DNA of 36,577 nucleotides from Falsigemmobacter faecalis (GTDB lineage: Bacteria; Pseudomonadota; Alphaproteobacteria; Rhodobacterales; Rhodobacteraceae), in the NCBI RefSeq assembly GCF_003863335.1, contig NZ_RRAZ01000034.1, forward strand, positions 1-36,577. The letters run 5' to 3'. Under the pieces are notes generated by a model. The model was not told the origin of the DNA. It was given only the letters and a program-made list of their open reading frames with translations, and ran no database searches. Shown one piece after another: positions 44-36,577 of this stretch (the stretch's first letter is position 1; each line of letters starts with the position of its first letter). The position numbers and the translations under genes were made by a program.

Positions 44-291
44 TAAATGAGACCGCGCACCACAAGAACGAGAGAGTGATATGATGGGAGCATCTGCCGT
101 TTTGGATACAGGTGTCTCGCGGGACTGGCTTCATAGCCCCTGTCGGCCAAAGGCCCCTCGGCAGGCCACTAAGCCTTGATCCTGTGCGAGAGGGCGATCA
201 GTTCGACGCTGCAGGTCGGGGTTGAGGGACATTGTTGCATAAATCTATTAGGATTCAGTATTTTACGTGATCATGCTGCGCTGTTGGTATG

Positions 292-720
292 AACTATCCG
301 CCGAGGACCTGCTACAAGACGAGCAACTGGCGTGCTTATAACCCAGGATTGAAGCGCCGAGGTTCACTGCCCCCATGGTTTGATGCGGGCATGAAGTGGG
401 AAGCGAAGCCCTCCGGCCAGAGGCGCGGGCAACAGACCTCCAGCGGTGAGGAGGATCAGCACACAGTCCAAGTATGAGCAGGATAACCATTTGATCCGGG
501 GGATCAAATTCCCTGTAATTGGTTTTGCCGACGATTGGATGCACTGCCTCAAACAGCCCGGTCAGCGGTTCATGGCCAGGGCATTCGACAGGCAGGTTGC
601 AGAAGTCCAAATCCGTGCTCTTCGCAGTCTCTCTCGGACCGATGGCGTTCGACGGCTCAGTCCTAAACGGCTTCACAGCACTCGGCACGCCGACGACCAT
701 CTGTGTTCCATACAGTTGAG
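292..720 (+). pseudogene. IS5-family transposase remnant (copy A)
   Basis: The 5' part (about 307-444) reads TSNWRAYNPGLKRRGSL followed by WFDAGMKWEAKPSG, the typical N-terminus of IS5-family transposases. The 3' part, in another frame, reads MHCLKQPGQRFMARAFDRQ (from about 539) and then VLNGFTALGTP in a third frame, which is the usual C-terminal end. The DDE catalytic core of roughly 180 residues is absent; a 93-base segment (446-538) sits at the junction. The remnant is therefore both deleted and frameshifted. Family assignment rests on these recalled motifs. Confidence 0.75.
446..538 (+). other. Junction segment shared by three transposase remnants (copy A)
   Basis: This 93-base segment begins GTGAGGAGGATC and ends GACGATTGG. 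It contains the interrupted dyad GATCCGGGGGATC (493-505). It occupies the place where the core of the IS5-family transposase has been lost. The same segment is present at 17435-17527 (93 bases, inverted) and in shortened form at 36306-36354 inside an IS481-family remnant. Its origin and role are unknown; it does not translate into anything I recognise. Confidence 0.7.
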
Positions 721-17244: not shown

Positions 17245-17738
17245 CAACTGGTTCAGCTTTATGGAACAGGGATGGTCGTCGGCGTGCCCGGTGCTGTGAC
17301 GCGGTTTTAGGATTGAGCCGTCGAAGGCCCTCGGTCCGCGAGAGGCTGCGAAAAGCACGGATTTGGACTTCTGCGACCTGCCTGTCGAATGCCCTGGCCA
17401 TGAGCCTCTGGCCGGGCTGTTTGAGGCAGTTCATCCAATCGTCGGGCAAACCAATCGCAGGGCATTTGATCCACCGGATCAGAGGCTTATCCTGCTCATA
17501 CCCGGACGGTTTGCGGATCCTCCTCACCGCTGGAGATCTGTTGCAGGCCCCGCTGGCCGGAGGGCCTCGCGTCCCACCCATGCCCGCATCAAGCCATGGG
17601 TCAGTGAACCTCGGCGCTTCAATGCCTGGTTATAAGCACGCCAGTTGCTCGCCTTCCAGCGGGGCCTCGGCGGATAGTTTATACCAACAACGTAGCATGA
17701 TCAGGAAGGGCCCTGAATCCTAAGAGATTTATGCAACG
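17245..17738 (-). mobile_element. IS5-family element, internally deleted (copy B, inverted)
   Basis: Reading on the minus strand from 17738, the tip GTTGCATAAATC (17726-17737) is identical to that of copy A. The transposase remnant is the same: the 5' part with SNWRAYN and LKRRGSL, the 93-base junction segment at 17435-17527, then MNCLKQPGQRLMARAFDRQ. Similarity to copy A stops near 17245, so the right end is lost here. The transposase gene is broken by the same deletion and by frameshifts. Copies A and B are inverted and bracket 16.5 kb of housekeeping genes. Confidence 0.75.
17435..17527 (-). other. Junction segment shared by three transposase remnants (copy B)
   Basis: Equal in length (93 bases) to the segment at 446-538 and alignable without gaps, beginning GTGAGGAGGATC and ending GACGATTGG on the minus strand. 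The central dyad reads GATCCGGTGGATC. It sits at the same deletion point of the IS5-family transposase. Roughly 85 percent of positions agree with copy A by eye. Confidence 0.7.
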
Positions 17739-21488: not shown

Positions 21489-22661
21489 TTACGCCTTATC
21501 GGTCTCCGGCGTTCCGCCCGAGAAATTGCGGTAGATAAAGCTGTCGCTGCCGCCCGCGGATTCCAGCGCCGCCTCAAAAATCCGCTTGTGATGCGGGGAT
21601 TTCGCGCAGGCGGGATCGGTGTTTCCGGCCTTGCCGGTCAGCGCAAAGGCCTGGCAGCGGCAGCCGCCGAAATCGATCTCTTTGAATTCGCAGGACTGAC
21701 AGGGCTCGGGCATCCAGCCGGTGCCACGATAGGCGTTAAAGGCCTCGGAATTGTCCCAGATCCAGCGGATGGATTTATTGCCGCGCACGGAATCAAACTC
21801 CAGCCCGGTGATGCTTTCCGCCGCATGGCAGGGCAGCACCTTGCCCGCGGGCGAGATATTGAAGAACTGCCGTCCCCAGCCGCCCATGCATTGCTTCGGG
21901 CGCTCGGCATAGTAATCGGGGATCACATAGTCGATCTCCATGATGCCATGAAGCTGGCTGCGCGCGCTTTCGACGATCGCGGTGGCGCGGTCCATCTGCT
22001 CGCGGCTGGGCATCAGCGAGGCGCGGTTTTTCAGCGCCCAGCCGTAATACTGCACATTGGCCACTTCCAGCCGCTGGGCGCGCAGCTGCAGCGCCAGATC
22101 AATGATTTCAGGCAGTTGCGGCAGGTTCTGGCGGTGCATCACCGCATTGACCGTCAGCGGCAAACCCATTTCATGGACCCAGGCCGCCACTTCCAGCTTT
22201 TTGGCATGGCCGTTTTTAAAGCCGCCCACCCGGTCGGCCATGGCGGCATTTGCCCCCTGAACCGAGATCTGCACATGGTTCAGCCCGGCATCCGCCAGGG
22301 CCTGCAGTTTATCGCGCGACAGCATCACCGCCGAGGTGATGAGGTTCGAATAAAGCCCCACATCATGGGCGCGCTGCACCAGCTGCACCAGATCTTTGCG
22401 CACCGTCGGCTCGCCACCCGAGAAGTGGATCTGCAAAACGCCGATCTCGGCCAGCTCGTCGATGACGCGCAGCCATTCTTCGGTCGAAAGTTCCTTGCCC
22501 GAGGCTTCAAGCTCGACCGGGTTCGAGCAATAGGGGCATTGCAGCGGGCAGCGGTGCGTCAGCTCCACCAGCACCGCCAGCGGAATGCCGTAATCTGCCT
22601 TGGCCGTGTCGCCCTTGCGGGTGACCAGGGCGAATTCGTCCTGTGCAAGGATTTCGTCCAT
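21489..22661 (-). CDS. pqqE: PqqA peptide cyclase (radical SAM)
   Basis: Forms the carbon-carbon bond between the conserved Glu and Tyr of PqqA, first step of PQQ synthesis. The 390-residue protein carries the radical SAM cysteine motif CPLQCPYC (Cys38, 42, 45), the GGEPTVR motif that binds SAM, and a C-terminal SPASM domain with the auxiliary cluster cysteines in CHAAESI, CQSCEF, GGCRCQAF and CAKSPHH. It is separated from pqqD by 141 bases, unlike the overlapping genes upstream, and is preceded by AAGGAG. Confidence 0.97.
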   Translation of the reverse strand: MDEILAQDEFALVTRKGDTAKADYGIPLAVLVELTHRCPLQCPYCSNPVELEASGKELSTEEWLRVIDELAEIGVLQIHFSGGEPTVRKDLVQLVQRAHDVGLYSNLITSAVMLSRDKLQALADAGLNHVQISVQGANAAMADRVGGFKNGHAKKLEVAAWVHEMGLPLTVNAVMHRQNLPQLPEIIDLALQLRAQRLEVANVQYYGWALKNRASLMPSREQMDRATAIVESARSQLHGIMEIDYVIPDYYAERPKQCMGGWGRQFFNISPAGKVLPCHAAESITGLEFDSVRGNKSIRWIWDNSEAFNAYRGTGWMPEPCQSCEFKEIDFGGCRCQAFALTGKAGNTDPACAKSPHHKRIFEAALESAGGSDSFIYRNFSGGTPETDKA

Positions 22662-22728
22662 CCTGGTAACTCCTTAACTGTCAAAGCCTGGCCGGGGGCC
22701 TGTGGGGGCGCTCCGGAAGGTCCGTGGT

Positions 22729-22744
22729 GTCAGCCGGGGCTGAC
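22729..22744 (-). other. Short perfect hairpin between pqqD and pqqE
   Basis: GTCAGCC/GGCTGAC form a 7-bp stem with a two-base loop in the 141-base gap. No T tract follows. It may be an RNA processing or stabilising element that sets the ratio of pqqE to the upstream genes. Confidence 0.4.
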
Positions 22745-22802
22745 GTTTAAACATAGCCTTAGGGGCCGGGATTTCCAGGGCTGCAGATCCCGAGGAATCC
22801 GA

Positions 22803-23141
22803 TCAGCCCTCGCTGACGAGGGTCAGAAAGCCGCGATCGGACATATCCTGAAACATCTCAATCGCATCGGCCTCAATCACCGCCGCATCGGCGGCATAGG
22901 TCTGTGCCAGATGGGCGGCGATTTCGGCCACCGTGCGCTGGCCATCGGCTTCCTGCAGCAGGACCACGGCGGTCGGCTCGGGGATCAGCACGCGCTCGGG
23001 CACCAGGATCAGCCAGCGGTCGCGCGCCGGATCATGGCGCAGCACCACATGGCGCGGCAGGCGCGGACGGCTGTCACGGGTGACAACCGCGCGGGTCGGG
23101 GTGACCGAGGGGCGCCAGACGGGGGCCTCTTCGCCACTCAT
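22803..23141 (-). CDS. pqqD: PqqA-binding chaperone
   Basis: A 112-residue peptide chaperone that binds PqqA and presents it to PqqE. The body has the winged-helix RiPP-recognition fold: RHVVLRHDPARDRWLILVPE, then LLQEADGQRTVAEIAAHLAQ and FQDMSDRGFL. About 25 extra residues precede the usual start. Its ATGA start overlaps the pqqC stop by four bases, which indicates translational coupling. Confidence 0.93.
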   Translation of the reverse strand: MSGEEAPVWRPSVTPTRAVVTRDSRPRLPRHVVLRHDPARDRWLILVPERVLIPEPTAVVLLQEADGQRTVAEIAAHLAQTYAADAAVIEADAIEMFQDMSDRGFLTLVSEG

Positions 23142-23917
23142 GCGTCGCGTCCCGGAACAAAGGCACCGGGCGGCACCATGCCGTTCACATAGGCCTGATA
23201 AAGCGCATCCTGCTGCACCCAGAGCACATCGGTCTTGAAGGCCAGGGCATCGCAGACCTGCTGACGCTGCTCAGGGGTTTGGGCATGCTCAAGGCAGTAT
23301 TTCAGCGCAAATTCCGCGTCACGCGTCGCCTGGTTCAGACGACGGCTGAAATAGACCATCACTTCGGGGTTGATGAAGTCATAATGCTTCAGCATGCCCG
23401 CGATGCGTTCGCGGTGGATATTCGGGGCGAAAAGCTCTGTCAGCGAGGAGGCAATCGCCTCCAGCGGAGAGCGGTCGCGGACGAAATGCACATAGGCCTC
23501 AACCGCAAAGCGGGTGGCCGGAAGGATGCCGCGGGTGGATTCGACATAGTCGCGCGACAGCCCCAGACCATCGGTCAGCACCAGCCAGCGCTCAATCCCG
23601 CCCTCATCGCCTTCGATGCCGTCGTGATCCTCAATGCGGTGACGCCATTCCAGACGGGTCGCGCGGTCGCGGAACCGCGACAGCACCACGGCATCTTTAA
23701 TCGGAATGATCGACTGATAGGCAAAGCGGTTCAGCGCCCAGGCCTGGACCTGGCCCTTGTTCAGCTTGCCGCCGTGCAGCAGGTGATGAAAGGGGTGCAG
23801 ACTGTGATAGCGGGTCTCACCGATCCAGCGCAGGCGGCGCTCCATGGCCTCGGGGCTGTCGAGCGGCTCCTGCGGTTCGGGAAGGACCTCCGCCGTGTAA
23901 ATGCCGGTCGCGCTCAT
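23138..23917 (-). CDS. pqqC: Pyrroloquinoline-quinone synthase
   Basis: Cofactor-free oxidase that performs the final ring closure and eight-electron oxidation to PQQ. The 259-residue all-helical protein shows the family segments RYHSLHPFHHLLHGGKLNKG, NRFAYQSIIPIKDA, EAYVHFVRDRSPLEAIASSL and TELFAPNIHRERI, which line the active site. It overlaps pqqB and pqqD by four bases each. Confidence 0.97.
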   Translation of the reverse strand: MSATGIYTAEVLPEPQEPLDSPEAMERRLRWIGETRYHSLHPFHHLLHGGKLNKGQVQAWALNRFAYQSIIPIKDAVVLSRFRDRATRLEWRHRIEDHDGIEGDEGGIERWLVLTDGLGLSRDYVESTRGILPATRFAVEAYVHFVRDRSPLEAIASSLTELFAPNIHRERIAGMLKHYDFINPEVMVYFSRRLNQATRDAEFALKYCLEHAQTPEQRQQVCDALAFKTDVLWVQQDALYQAYVNGMVPPGAFVPGRDA

Positions 23918-24840
23918 GCGGTGAACTCCTGTCCCTTGCGGGGAATGATCCAGCCCGCGGCTTCAACGGAAGCGCGCTCGGGCGAATCCTCCAGCCAGAC
24001 GGGGTTGGAATTGTTGATGTGAACAAAGACCTTACGGGTAATGCCCAGATCACTGAGCAAGGCCATGCTGCCGCCCGGTCCCGACATTGAGACATGCCCC
24101 ATGCTGGCCCCGGTCTTTTGCGCCAGCCCTGCGCGGATCATCTCATCATCGCGCCAGAGCGTGCCGTCAAAGAAGACCAGATCCGCCCCGCGCAGACGCG
24201 CTTCCAGATCGGGCGACATCGCGGCACAGGCGAGGATCACATGCGCCCGCTTGCCGGTCGTGCGATCCGAGAGCGTCAGCCCGATGGTGTCGCCGACGGA
24301 ATGCCCCTCACCTTCCGGGGTGCCTTCGAGATACCAGGCCGCTTTGCCGGGAACCGTGAAGGCCTCCACCACAAGGCCCGAGGGGGTACCATCGGGCAGG
24401 GCAGGCTCAAAGACCTCGCCAAGGGTGATCGGCAGACGCGGCACACGCCCGGGGTTCAACACGTTGAAGACCGAGTTCGAGGCCAGGGTCTCCAGCACAC
24501 GCGGGTGGCCGTAAAGCGCGAAGGGCTGGCCCTCGCGCATCGACAACAGCCCGGTGATCGCGTCGATTTCGCCATTGGTCAGGAACACGCCCGCGATGGG
24601 GCTGTGACGCAGATGGCCTTCGCGCGGATGTAGCTGCGGGGTTGTCAGGATCTGCGCGCGGATATCGGGCGAGGCATTGATCAAAAACCAATGCTGCCCG
24701 TCATCGGCTGAGACCGCGAGCGACACCTGAGTGTCCTGCATCTCTGCGCGTCCCCAAGCCTCTGCGCAGATCGCGCAGCGGCAGTTCCATTGCGGCAAAG
24801 CGCCGCCTGCTGCAGCCCCGAGAACGATGACTTTAAGCAT
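23914..24840 (-). CDS. pqqB: PQQ biosynthesis protein PqqB
   Basis: Metallo-beta-lactamase-fold protein of 308 residues, proposed to hydroxylate the tyrosine-derived ring of the PqqA-derived dipeptide. It begins MLKVIVLGAAAGGALPQWNC and shows C-x-x-C (NCRCAIC), the NGEIDAITGLLSMREGQPF segment and HVSMSGPGGS that are typical of PqqB. It starts 33 bases after pqqA and overlaps pqqC by four bases. Confidence 0.96.
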   Translation of the reverse strand: MLKVIVLGAAAGGALPQWNCRCAICAEAWGRAEMQDTQVSLAVSADDGQHWFLINASPDIRAQILTTPQLHPREGHLRHSPIAGVFLTNGEIDAITGLLSMREGQPFALYGHPRVLETLASNSVFNVLNPGRVPRLPITLGEVFEPALPDGTPSGLVVEAFTVPGKAAWYLEGTPEGEGHSVGDTIGLTLSDRTTGKRAHVILACAAMSPDLEARLRGADLVFFDGTLWRDDEMIRAGLAQKTGASMGHVSMSGPGGSMALLSDLGITRKVFVHINNSNPVWLEDSPERASVEAAGWIIPRKGQEFTA

Positions 24841-32352: not shown

Positions 32353-34110
32353 ATGAAACTCAGCATCCGCAAACATCTGCTGGCAGCAACCACCGCGCTC
32401 GTCGCTCTGGCGCCTGCCGCCTTCGCAGACAGCGTTCTGGACAAATACACCCCGGTTACGTCGCAAGACCTGCTGAACCCGTCGAAATCCGACTGGATCC
32501 ACTGGCGCGGCGACTACGCGAACACCGGCTTCTCGCATCTTGACCAGATCAACAAAGAGACCGTCAAGGATCTTGAGCTGGCATGGGCCTGGCCGATGGC
32601 GGATGTCGGTATCCAGGAAACCGCACCGCTCGTTCGTGACGGCGTGATGTTCCTGCAGACCTCGAACGGCATCGTCGAAGCGCTTGACGCGCAATCGGGC
32701 GATCTGCTCTGGACCTACCGTCACGTGCTGCCGGAACTGCCGAAGTCGTGGTCCTATCAGGCCAACCAGGCGCGCCGTCAGAAAAACTCGATCGCGCTGG
32801 CCGGTGACAAAGTCATCCTGACCACCCCGGACGCCAAACTGGTCGCTCTCGAAGCCAAAACCGGCAAAGTGGCATGGGAAAAGCAGGCTCTCGACTGGGA
32901 GAAGGGCTATTCCTACACCATCGGTGGTCTGGTTGTTGAAAACACCATCATCACCGCGATCTCGGGTTGCTCGATCGCCGGCACCGCCGGTGGCTGCTAT
33001 ATCATGGCGCATAACCTTGAGAACGGCGAAGAAATCTGGCGCTTCAACACCATCGCTGACCCGAAGAACCCCAAGCAGGGCGACTCGTGGGGCGGTGTGC
33101 CGGAAGAGAACCGCTGGGGCGGTACGCCCTGGGCAACCGGTTCGTATGATCCGGAACTCGGCCTGACCTTCTGGGGCGTTGGTATGCCTGGTCCCTACGC
33201 GGAGCTGATCCGTGGTTCGGGCGACGGCGATGTGCTTTACACCAACGCGACCATCGCGCTGGACGTGAAAACCGGTGAGCTGAAGTGGTACTTCACCCAC
33301 CTGCCGCGCGACAACTGGGACCTCGACGCGCCGTTTGAGCGCATCATGGTTGACCAGGAAATCGACGGCAAGATGCACAAGATGCTGGTCTCGATCCCGG
33401 GCAAAACCGGCGTGGCCTTCGCGCTTGACCGCGAAACCGGCAAATACCTGTGGTCGAAAGAGACCGTGAAACAGAACGTCATCACCAAAGTTGATGCTGA
33501 CGGTACGGTTCACGTGAACGAAGACCTGATCCCGACCGCAGTTGGCCAGCCGGTTCACGCCTGCACCTCGGTTTCGGGTGGTAAACTCTGGCAGGCGGCT
33601 GCCTATTCGCCGCTGACCAAGACCCTCTTTGCGCCGCTCACCGAGGCCTGCAACGACGTGACCCCGACCCAGTCGGAATTCACCGCAGGCAACGCTGTGG
33701 GTTCGGTCAAATTCGGCCCGCGCGTTCTGCCGGAAGGCATCGACAAAGCCGGTCTCTTTGAGGCGCTGTCGATCAACCCGGTGCAGGGTGACCACGTCTG
33801 GCAGAGCCGCCAGCGCGAAACCCCGACCTCGTCGGTTCTCGCGACCGCAGGCGGTCTGGTCTTTGGTGGTGACGCAGCCCGCTACGTCAAAGCTTTCGAT
33901 CAGGAAACCGGTGAAGTGCTGTGGAAACAGCGTCTGAACGCACCGATCGGTGGCTATCCGATGTCCTATGAAATCGACGGCGAGCAGTATCTGGTGGTCC
34001 CCACCGGTTACTCGAACTCGGCCTCCTCGATCTCCTCGGCCTTCCCGGAGACCCCGCTGCCGAACGGCAACGGCAACTCGATCTTCGTGTTCAAACTTCC
34101 GAAGAACTGA
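32353..34110 (+). CDS. PQQ-dependent dehydrogenase (sorbose/sorbosone or PVA-type quinoprotein)
   Basis: Periplasmic eight-bladed quinoprotein of 585 residues. The signal peptide ends near residue 25 (AAFA/DSV). Tryptophan-docking motifs such as ALDAQSGDLLWTYR, LEAKTGKVAWEK and FDQETGEVLWKQRL mark the propeller blades. LPRDNWDLDAPFE holds the presumed catalytic Asp323, with a second acid, Asp325, two residues on. The C-x8-C region (Cys206, Cys215) in place of the usual adjacent Cys-Cys resembles Ketogulonicigenium sorbose/sorbosone dehydrogenases. There is no haem domain, so it needs the cytochrome encoded upstream. Substrate is probably an alcohol, sugar or aldehyde. Strong codon bias suggests high expression. 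Confidence 0.92.
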   Translation: MKLSIRKHLLAATTALVALAPAAFADSVLDKYTPVTSQDLLNPSKSDWIHWRGDYANTGFSHLDQINKETVKDLELAWAWPMADVGIQETAPLVRDGVMFLQTSNGIVEALDAQSGDLLWTYRHVLPELPKSWSYQANQARRQKNSIALAGDKVILTTPDAKLVALEAKTGKVAWEKQALDWEKGYSYTIGGLVVENTIITAISGCSIAGTAGGCYIMAHNLENGEEIWRFNTIADPKNPKQGDSWGGVPEENRWGGTPWATGSYDPELGLTFWGVGMPGPYAELIRGSGDGDVLYTNATIALDVKTGELKWYFTHLPRDNWDLDAPFERIMVDQEIDGKMHKMLVSIPGKTGVAFALDRETGKYLWSKETVKQNVITKVDADGTVHVNEDLIPTAVGQPVHACTSVSGGKLWQAAAYSPLTKTLFAPLTEACNDVTPTQSEFTAGNAVGSVKFGPRVLPEGIDKAGLFEALSINPVQGDHVWQSRQRETPTSSVLATAGGLVFGGDAARYVKAFDQETGEVLWKQRLNAPIGGYPMSYEIDGEQYLVVPTGYSNSASSISSAFPETPLPNGNGNSIFVFKLPKN

Positions 34111-36084: not shown

Positions 36085-36140
36085 GGTGTTTGATCCCATG
36101 GTTTGAGGGTGCGATCCTTTGAGGGAATGGAAGGGGCCCC

Positions 36141-36577
36141 ATGGAACAAATTCACCATGGCAGGCCACGACCAGGCAGGCCGTCCGAGCTGCACGACTGA
36201 CGGCTTGCCCGCCGCTGGTCCGGAATGATCGCAGGACGAAGGCCCGCGTGCCATCGGTCCGGGGGCGGGATTGAGTGTTCGCGGAGCTGAGCCGCACCGT
36301 CCGGCGTGAGGAGGATCAGAAAACGATCCGGGGGATCGCTTTCCCGACGATTGGCTCTATCTCTTTGTCGACATTGATAGACCGGGCAAATTCGCGGTGA
36401 CACAATCGGCCGGAAAGGCTGACCGGAAGACGGCCCGGGAGTTCCCCAAACACCTTATCAGGGTCGTGCCGTATTGCATCCATACCGCTCTGACCCAGTG
36501 AGCCCATCGGCGAAAAGAATCCCGTTCGCTGAGGCGCTGATAGTGTAACCGCCCGACGGCATCGATGTGCCATATGT
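36141..36577 (+). pseudogene. IS481-family transposase remnant
   Basis: The start MEQIHHG, then after a one-base shift ATTRQAVRAA, matches the IS481 N-terminus (M-x-Q-x-x-HGSATTTxAVRAAI). From 36346 the sequence DDWLYLFVDIDRPGKFAVTQ followed by KADRKTAREFPKHLIRVVPY and CIHTALT is the start of the catalytic domain (LYLFVAIDR, KADRRTAWEFL, VPYRIHTILTDNG). The section between, several hundred bases in intact relatives, is missing and the 49-base segment 36306-36354 lies at the join. A stop and further frame changes follow near 36530. Confidence 0.72.
36306..36354 (+). other. Junction segment shared by three transposase remnants (copy C, short form)
   Basis: GTGAGGAGGATCAG, then GATCCGGGGGATC and GACGATTGG: a shortened version of the 93-base segments at 446-538 and 17435-17527. 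About 42 of 49 positions match copy A once two gaps are allowed. Here it lies inside an IS481-family, not IS5-family, transposase remnant. Part of it could still be read as IS481 sequence (REEDQKTIRGIAF resembles the EEEAxVVAF region), so a common origin is not proven. Confidence 0.6.

Follow-up and report, generated by a model that had tools for sequence, protein, structure and literature searches.

Why do remnants of different insertion sequence (IS) families carry the same short segment where their transposase cores are missing? This question is raised by the window, that is, the whole 36,577-nucleotide stretch of Falsigemmobacter faecalis contig NZ_RRAZ01000034.1 analyzed here, in which the initial annotation had described three such remnants. 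As judged from the comparison of many copies, the repeated segment is a quasi-palindromic, apparently hairpin-forming DNA insert of ~47 nt (about 47-49), found at many sites inside transposase genes of several unrelated bacterial transposons. We consider it likely that these inserts form a family of short (~47-49 nt) palindromic insertion elements, residing mostly inside IS genes of Rhodobacterales, whose copies recombine, deleting the DNA between them or fusing ISs.

The shared segment and its distribution

The features concerned are listed below. The family names IS5 and IS481 for the fragments are in part our assumption.

289..432, + strand: N-terminal remnant of an IS5-type transposase, matching residues 4-51 of the L091 homologue and grouped with the left flanks of site s1 (blastx, flank cluster)
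446..538, + strand: copy A, a composite of an outer element (446-472 and 523-538) and a nested inner element
473..522, + strand: inner (nested) element of copy A, ends TATGAG...TAATTGG
539..616, + strand: C-terminal remnant of an IS5-type transposase, matching residues 269-294 of the L091 homologue and grouped with the right flanks of site s2 (blastx, flank cluster)
17357..17434, - strand: IS5-type C-terminal remnant adjoining copy B, s2 right flank (blastx, flank cluster)
17435..17527, - strand: copy B, a composite like A, inverted
17451..17500, - strand: inner (nested) element of copy B
36085..36294, + strand: on the left side of copy C, degenerate 5' part of a transposase gene of the IS481 type (blastn)
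36306..36354, + strand: copy C, one simple element of 49 nt
36355..36495, + strand: on the right side of copy C, remnant of an IS481-type transposase, grouped with the right flanks of IS481 site s1 (tblastn, flank cluster)

Elsewhere in the window, ORFs at 21489-24840 and 32353-34110 resemble what we take to be PQQ synthesis genes and a PQQ-dependent alcohol dehydrogenase.

The words by which the initial annotation had bounded the segment were found in place. The left word GTGAGGAGGATC is exact at 446-457 (+), 17516-17527 (-) and 36306-36317 (+), the GATCC-GGG-GGATC dyad lies at 493-505, 17468-17480 (with one mismatch) and 36325-36337, and (C/G)CCGACGATTGG closes all three segments. Within the window alone, the three words with up to 2 mismatches were weakly or not above chance (9 versus 3.5, 6 versus 2.4, and 6 versus 5.7). 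In the whole 4.24-Mb genome, GTGAGGAGGATC with at most 1 mismatch occurred 48 times, compared to once for the reversed control.

A homologue of 313 aa (an ORF in locus L091) aligned with the flanks of copy A over its residues 4-51 and 269-294; therefore, ~217 aa are missing. Those of copy B aligned to residues 7-31 and 269-294 of the same protein. On the right side of copy C, a stretch of 47 aa shares 70% identity with an IS481-like ORF of L198, and the left flank matches DNA ~350 bp further upstream in IS481-type genes. Pfam gave no match on the transposase fragments of the window. The proposed loss of IS5 cores around A and B was thus borne out, as was the position of C between parts of one gene, which we take to be of the IS481 type. 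The statement that all three remnants share one and the same segment was not: C is a single 49-nt element, and the 93 nt of A and B are two nested elements.

A 36-nt pattern of the element was then searched with up to 3 mismatches. It was found at 29 places in this genome, which holds the most copies among the 292 genomes of the order, and in 49 of these 292 Rhodobacterales genomes in total, compared to 0 for the reversed control. Outside Rhodobacterales, only 3 of 380 genomes matched, all at 3 mismatches. The broader GCGGATCAG form was present in 6 of 121 genomes. Among plasmids, 39 records matched segment C at E ≤1, including 27 over at least 80% of the segment. By organism name, 24 of these 27 are from genera that we take to belong to Rhodobacterales, and the other three are one each from Rhizobium, Neorhizobium, and Sphingomonas. 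The remaining 12 records include one Croceicoccus match (76% of the query) and 5 Burkholderia matches (47%), the latter probably due to chance.

Plan, folding, and nesting of the element

The sample comprised 195 loci, with at least 168 copies at no fewer than 150 distinct sites. After stricter removal of related flanks, 85 of the 149 sites with long enough flanks among the matches listed formed a strict set. Alignment of the copies among the matches listed gave the consensus X2-GAG-GAGGATCAG-nnnAnnn-TCC-GGG-GGA-nnnTnnn-CCCG-ACGA-Y2. Its inner stem has 11 bp (core 9-19 with 23-33) around a GGG loop and borders on an internal loop that is asymmetric (GAGGATCA/CCG). Further outward, one G-C pair precedes the tandem mismatch (A.G/G.A), and two more base pairs form an outer stem, which is variable in sequence and keeps its complementarity across copies. 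The 36-nt pattern of the locus set fixes core positions 1-9, 13, 17-25, 29, and 33-36, and copies were retained only with at least 6 of 9 inner pairs. The inner-stem statistics are therefore biased, and the compensatory changes observed at the positions left free by the pattern are partly selected. The outer-stem positions, on the other hand, are absent from all 36-nt patterns, and their statistics are thereby unbiased. At the 85 strict sites among the matches listed, Watson-Crick pairs were counted 81 times at (-1,+2), 65 times at (-4,+5), and 59 times at (-5,+6), with z values of 9.8, 8.2, and 8.7, respectively; at (-6,+7), the same sites showed no covariation (4 pairs, z -1.3). In the same set, -2/+3 is mostly A.G (67/85) and -3/+4 mostly G.A (66/85). 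A mismatch between X and Y was also considered as a mark of hybrid copies and was dropped, as the class TATGAG...ACGATT is itself mismatched at (-4,+5).

Folding was compared with 200 shuffles per copy. Only one of three valid copies stood out, namely L111, for which 4/200 shuffles did at least as well when folded as RNA. Copy C was not better than its shuffles (137/200 at least as good in RNA folding and 61/200 in DNA folding), and neither was composite A in RNA folding (82/200). As a side observation, the left end of the element, TGAGGAGG, reads as a stop codon overlapping a Shine-Dalgarno-like AGGAGG, with no start codon seen by eye at the usual distance after it.

In A and B, the 93 nt are made up of two elements, one within the other, the inner copy sitting in the loop of the outer one; the dyad of both is therefore part of the inner copy. 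In this genome, 13 copies of the inner type were found, of which two (L201 and L210) are without part of the outer element. We recognized at least 11 distinct composites, with six different left flanks by eye, in which the inner copy enters the outer element at the same point. Either the composite may have moved as a unit, or the inner element may repeatedly have entered, or been converted into, the outer one. Gene conversion and repair filler had both been offered as explanations of the shared bases; neither is needed, although conversion is conceivable for the nested form.

Insertion into IS genes and recombination between copies

Both flanks fell on one homologous ORF at 85 of the 150 unique sites among the matches listed. 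At 73 of these, the net extra length was 36-50 bp; the remaining 12, whose net lengths differed from this, were left out. The net insert at the 73 colinear sites was 42 bp (27 sites), 43 bp (22), 45 bp (12), or another length (12), so that 61/73 had 42, 43, or 45 bp; three sites compared with plasmid homologues likewise gave 43, 42, and 45 bp. The orientation was sense at 33 and antisense at 40 of the 73 sites. Because the gene bearing the element is otherwise colinear, the segment itself is no stand-in for a lost core, and this part of the initial annotation's reading had to be given up.

At 54 empty sites resolved at the DNA level, the native bases replaced numbered 5 (25 sites), 4 (17), 2 (8), and 1, 6, or 7 (4), and no target-site duplication was seen. 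In the TATGAG class, the replaced length of 2 probably reflects a longer element. Counted as 38 distinct empty targets, the replaced length was 4 (15), 5 (14), 2 (6), or other (3). Three purines (RRR) stood directly upstream at 22/38 of these targets, compared to 4/38 in each of two control windows. Copying of the 2-nt outer ends from the target was considered and rejected, as X0 matched the native base at 0/53 and Y0 at 10/53 empty sites.

The element would thus be a non-autonomous mobile element, which a putative enzyme acting in trans may insert upon recognizing the folded single strand, in either orientation, in place of mostly 4-5 target bases, and often after a purine run. The junctions, with mostly 4-5 bases replaced and complementary variable ends, would offer a concrete signature for seeking this enzyme.

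The flanking sequences were analyzed by Pfam. Among the best 25 families for 293 flank segments, counted per family and not per site, rve, DDE_Tnp_1, Transposase_mut, IstB_IS21, and HTH_Tnp_1 led, and IS110, IS66, and DDE_3 were also present. Forty of the 85 strict sites were drawn at random: an IS-family match (E <0.01) was obtained for 28, a host gene for 1, and no such match for 11; the segments were chosen by eye, one per site, from the frames of the sites, which favors transposases, and one of the 28 matches (L044) consists of HTH_21 alone. The host gene (L178) is a semialdehyde dehydrogenase. The IS bias may reflect targeting, or only tolerance together with IS multiplication.

Such a bias toward IS genes of unrelated families might also arise if a host or IS patching system, RNA-templated or guided, wrote the insert into transposase genes on purpose and so silenced transposons. 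Many inserts do break the gene: 30/73 net lengths are not multiples of 3, and a stop is found in 24 of the other 43 alignments. However, 19/73 keep an open frame in the alignments, the orientation is unbiased, IS genes are dispensable and multiply by themselves, and a few copies are found in a host gene (L178) or, by eye, in phage-like genes (L168 and L180). We therefore regard deliberate silencing as improbable. In IS21-type transposases (L110, L112, and L092), the insert is in frame with open frames on both sides, and the protein would gain a peptide such as EDQKTIRGIVSP (L110).

The left and right flanks of 199 copies were next clustered separately. Of the left clusters, 12 were paired with two or more right clusters, and of the right clusters, 14 with two or more left clusters; hybrids and split clusters were told apart by eye. 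An IS5-type gene carries the element alone at site s1 in L181 and L212, the latter in this genome, and alone at site s2 in L045, L048, L172, L176, and L195. A, B, and L200 join the s1 left flank to the s2 right flank of this gene, the two sites being ~210 codons apart; among the copies of this genome, no s2 parent was seen. In IS481-type genes, both s1 and s3 are occupied in L023, L204, and L211, by elements of the same orientation at a distance of 486 bp; L017, L030, and L033 are hybrids that combine the left flank of s1 with the right flank of s3. L204 and L211 hold three elements in one stretch (s1, composite, s3), all in the same orientation. Hybrids between genes were also observed: in L037, an IS481 left flank is followed by the right flank of a different transposase gene, and in L021 by a right flank resembling IS5 s1 by eye.

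As far as flanks can tell, this pattern is the one to be expected if direct copies recombine with each other. Two copies in the same orientation, whether at separate sites of a single IS or in different ISs, would recombine as short direct repeats do, and the intervening DNA would be deleted or two ISs fused. Copies A and B, as IS5 s1-left joined to s2-right, are as expected if two direct copies recombined and the core was deleted. For C, the left parent site of the IS481 type was not found in the flank clusters of the 199 copies; the same kind of event probably took place. The suggestion of a small mobile or recombinogenic cassette thus pointed in the right direction, as many sites in several IS families and the reassortment of flanks favor it.

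Alternatively, the IS cores were first lost by ordinary deletion, and the element was later inserted, or used as filler, at the deletion joints. This would agree with the left and right flanks of A, B, and C stemming from distant parts of the genes. Nevertheless, the left and right joints in A and B fall at two insertion sites, each of which is occupied by an element in other copies, and the gene is colinear around the element at 73 sites, which leaves this order of events with little likelihood. If recombination between inserted copies is the correct reading, one class of very short palindromes shapes the death of ISs, since the inserts interrupt IS genes directly and also give rise to internal deletions and to chimeras of unrelated IS families. 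Annotators should therefore be aware that apparently lost cores in IS remnants can be recombination joints.

Mobility and known relatives

Independent sites in several IS families, together with their empty counterparts, argue for past mobility, as far as sequence comparison can do so. Stem identity was 0.80 for the same site in different genomes and 0.683 for different sites of one genome, compared to a background of 0.656. The per-genome mean was 0.593, and 199/200 label shuffles gave a mean at least as high; genome labels were given for 8 multi-copy genomes plus this one, with every other locus counted as its own genome. Comparison of stem sequences within and between genomes therefore gave no sign of recent hopping, and genome-specific bursts were not supported. 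Since copies at the same site are alike and those at different sites are near background, much of today's distribution is likely due to transport within IS lineages.

A more far-reaching reading, which we hold only as a tentative one, is that of a mobile hairpin living as a hyper-parasite in other mobile elements. A putative enzyme would insert it as a folded single strand replacing 4-5 bases, with a mechanistic preference for IS genes beyond their dispensability, with self-nesting, and with decay and fusion of ISs through its action as portable homology.

The closest known relatives are the CGTC-tagged REPs. The passages of Di Nocera et al. 2013 (PMC3733652) that describe them report mostly alphaproteobacterial short palindromes with compensatory stem changes and CGTC at one end, some of them in genes, for which no dedicated transposase was found. 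The same passages give a stem of 8-9 bp starting with AT, a loop of 4-5, a CCA-like tail, and mostly dimers; the repeats are mostly extragenic, and their few associations with transposase genes are fortuitous. Neither Rhodobacter nor Paracoccus nor Roseobacter is named in the main text of that paper. The present element shares with these REPs, as they are portrayed there, the short palindrome, the compensatory changes, the partly intragenic location, and the lack of a transposase found. GACG (complement CGTC) was observed at core 36 to +3 in 54/85 strict and 94/150 unique sites among the matches listed, leaving out the TGTC and CCTC variants of that paper. The element differs in its 11-bp stem (partly fixed by the search pattern), GGG loop, conserved internal loop, and location mostly in IS genes. 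Because stem, loop, and location differ, we place the family among the REP/RPE-like elements as a variant, outside the CGTC-tagged REPs themselves. A search of open-licence PMC articles found no report of an IS-resident family of this kind.

The hairpin with a conserved foot, whose 3' foot complement reads CGTC at 54/85 strict sites as in the REPs of PMC3733652, might suggest a REP moved by a resident RAYT/IS200-type (Y1) transposase. Carriers were 9/30 among genomes with Y1 and 40/262 among the others (tallied by eye; Fisher p 0.066), slightly above expectation, and a weak link to Y1 may therefore exist. However, the Y1_Tnp profile had no match in this genome, which has the highest copy number of the 292, and was absent from 40 of the 49 carriers. 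The GTAG foot typical of GTAG REP/RAYT systems was found in the last 6 left bases at 0/85 strict sites, in contrast to TGAG at 54/85. Movement by a resident Y1 enzyme thus has a poor chance of being correct. The corresponding enzyme question for the CGTC REPs was left open in the account of Di Nocera et al. (PMC3733652).

Two other classes of repeats share features with the element. MITEs are likewise short and multi-copy and can give sites for deletion by recombination; in contrast to them, no target-site duplication was seen here. Rickettsia palindromic elements (RPEs), described in part in PMC3733652, are palindromes inside ORFs, some in frame, so that the protein gains a peptide. Insertion inside ORFs was observed here as well (73/150 unique sites among the matches listed are colinear within one ORF homologue), but many inserts break the gene, and the targets are mostly IS genes.

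A related palindrome is also contained in an Rfam model, RF02604 (Brucella sRNA CI153), whose consensus includes GGaaauCaGuCCACUGGaCuGauuuCUGAUCC; this is complementary to a sequence closely related to the element. PMC9751625 places CI153 between two genes, with a length of 213 nt and detection by RT-PCR, and PMC9029176 counts it with the sRNAs that recur most often across bacterial genomes, which would be expected of a repeat. Of six loci scanned, two matched over the element on the complement strand, L142 (4979-5161) and L138 (2963-3053), the two scores being 27.8 and 23.9 bits. These matches and the compensatory stem changes could speak for a transcribed hairpin kept for regulation. Nevertheless, both scores are far under the cut-off of 137; the loop differs, and the rest of the 214-nt model fits poorly, so that mainly the palindrome fits; and copies lie in either orientation inside decaying genes. 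An RNA function is thus very unlikely. RF02604 may conversely owe many of its genome matches to such palindromes, and annotators should note that this sRNA model contains a related repeat.

Even less plausible is that the insert is skipped in expression, intron-like or by ribosome bypass, so that decorated transposases still work. Some genes do hold two or three inserts between open flanks (L204 and L211), and the third-position share of differences among decorated copies in other genomes equals that of the control (0.54 each, the control being only 20 pairs), compared to 0.42 for own pairs. However, both orientations are about equally common, and indels occur in many decorated pairs (62/97 own pairs and 137/190 others). 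Among flanks with a native frame, 45/356 had a stop in the best alignment. Finally, that the segment is native to one IS family, which the initial annotation had named as the outcome that would overturn its view, found no support and is contradicted by the 54 sites with empty homologous counterparts in several families, leaving it almost no probability.

A few copies lie in or near the end of other genes (L180, L168, L178, and L141), and some of these are a GCGGATCAG...CCGAACG variant. In addition, a flank translation at L077 (2299-2535) holds GEDKQTLRWTVCPTK, which resembles a second, diverged insert near the first.
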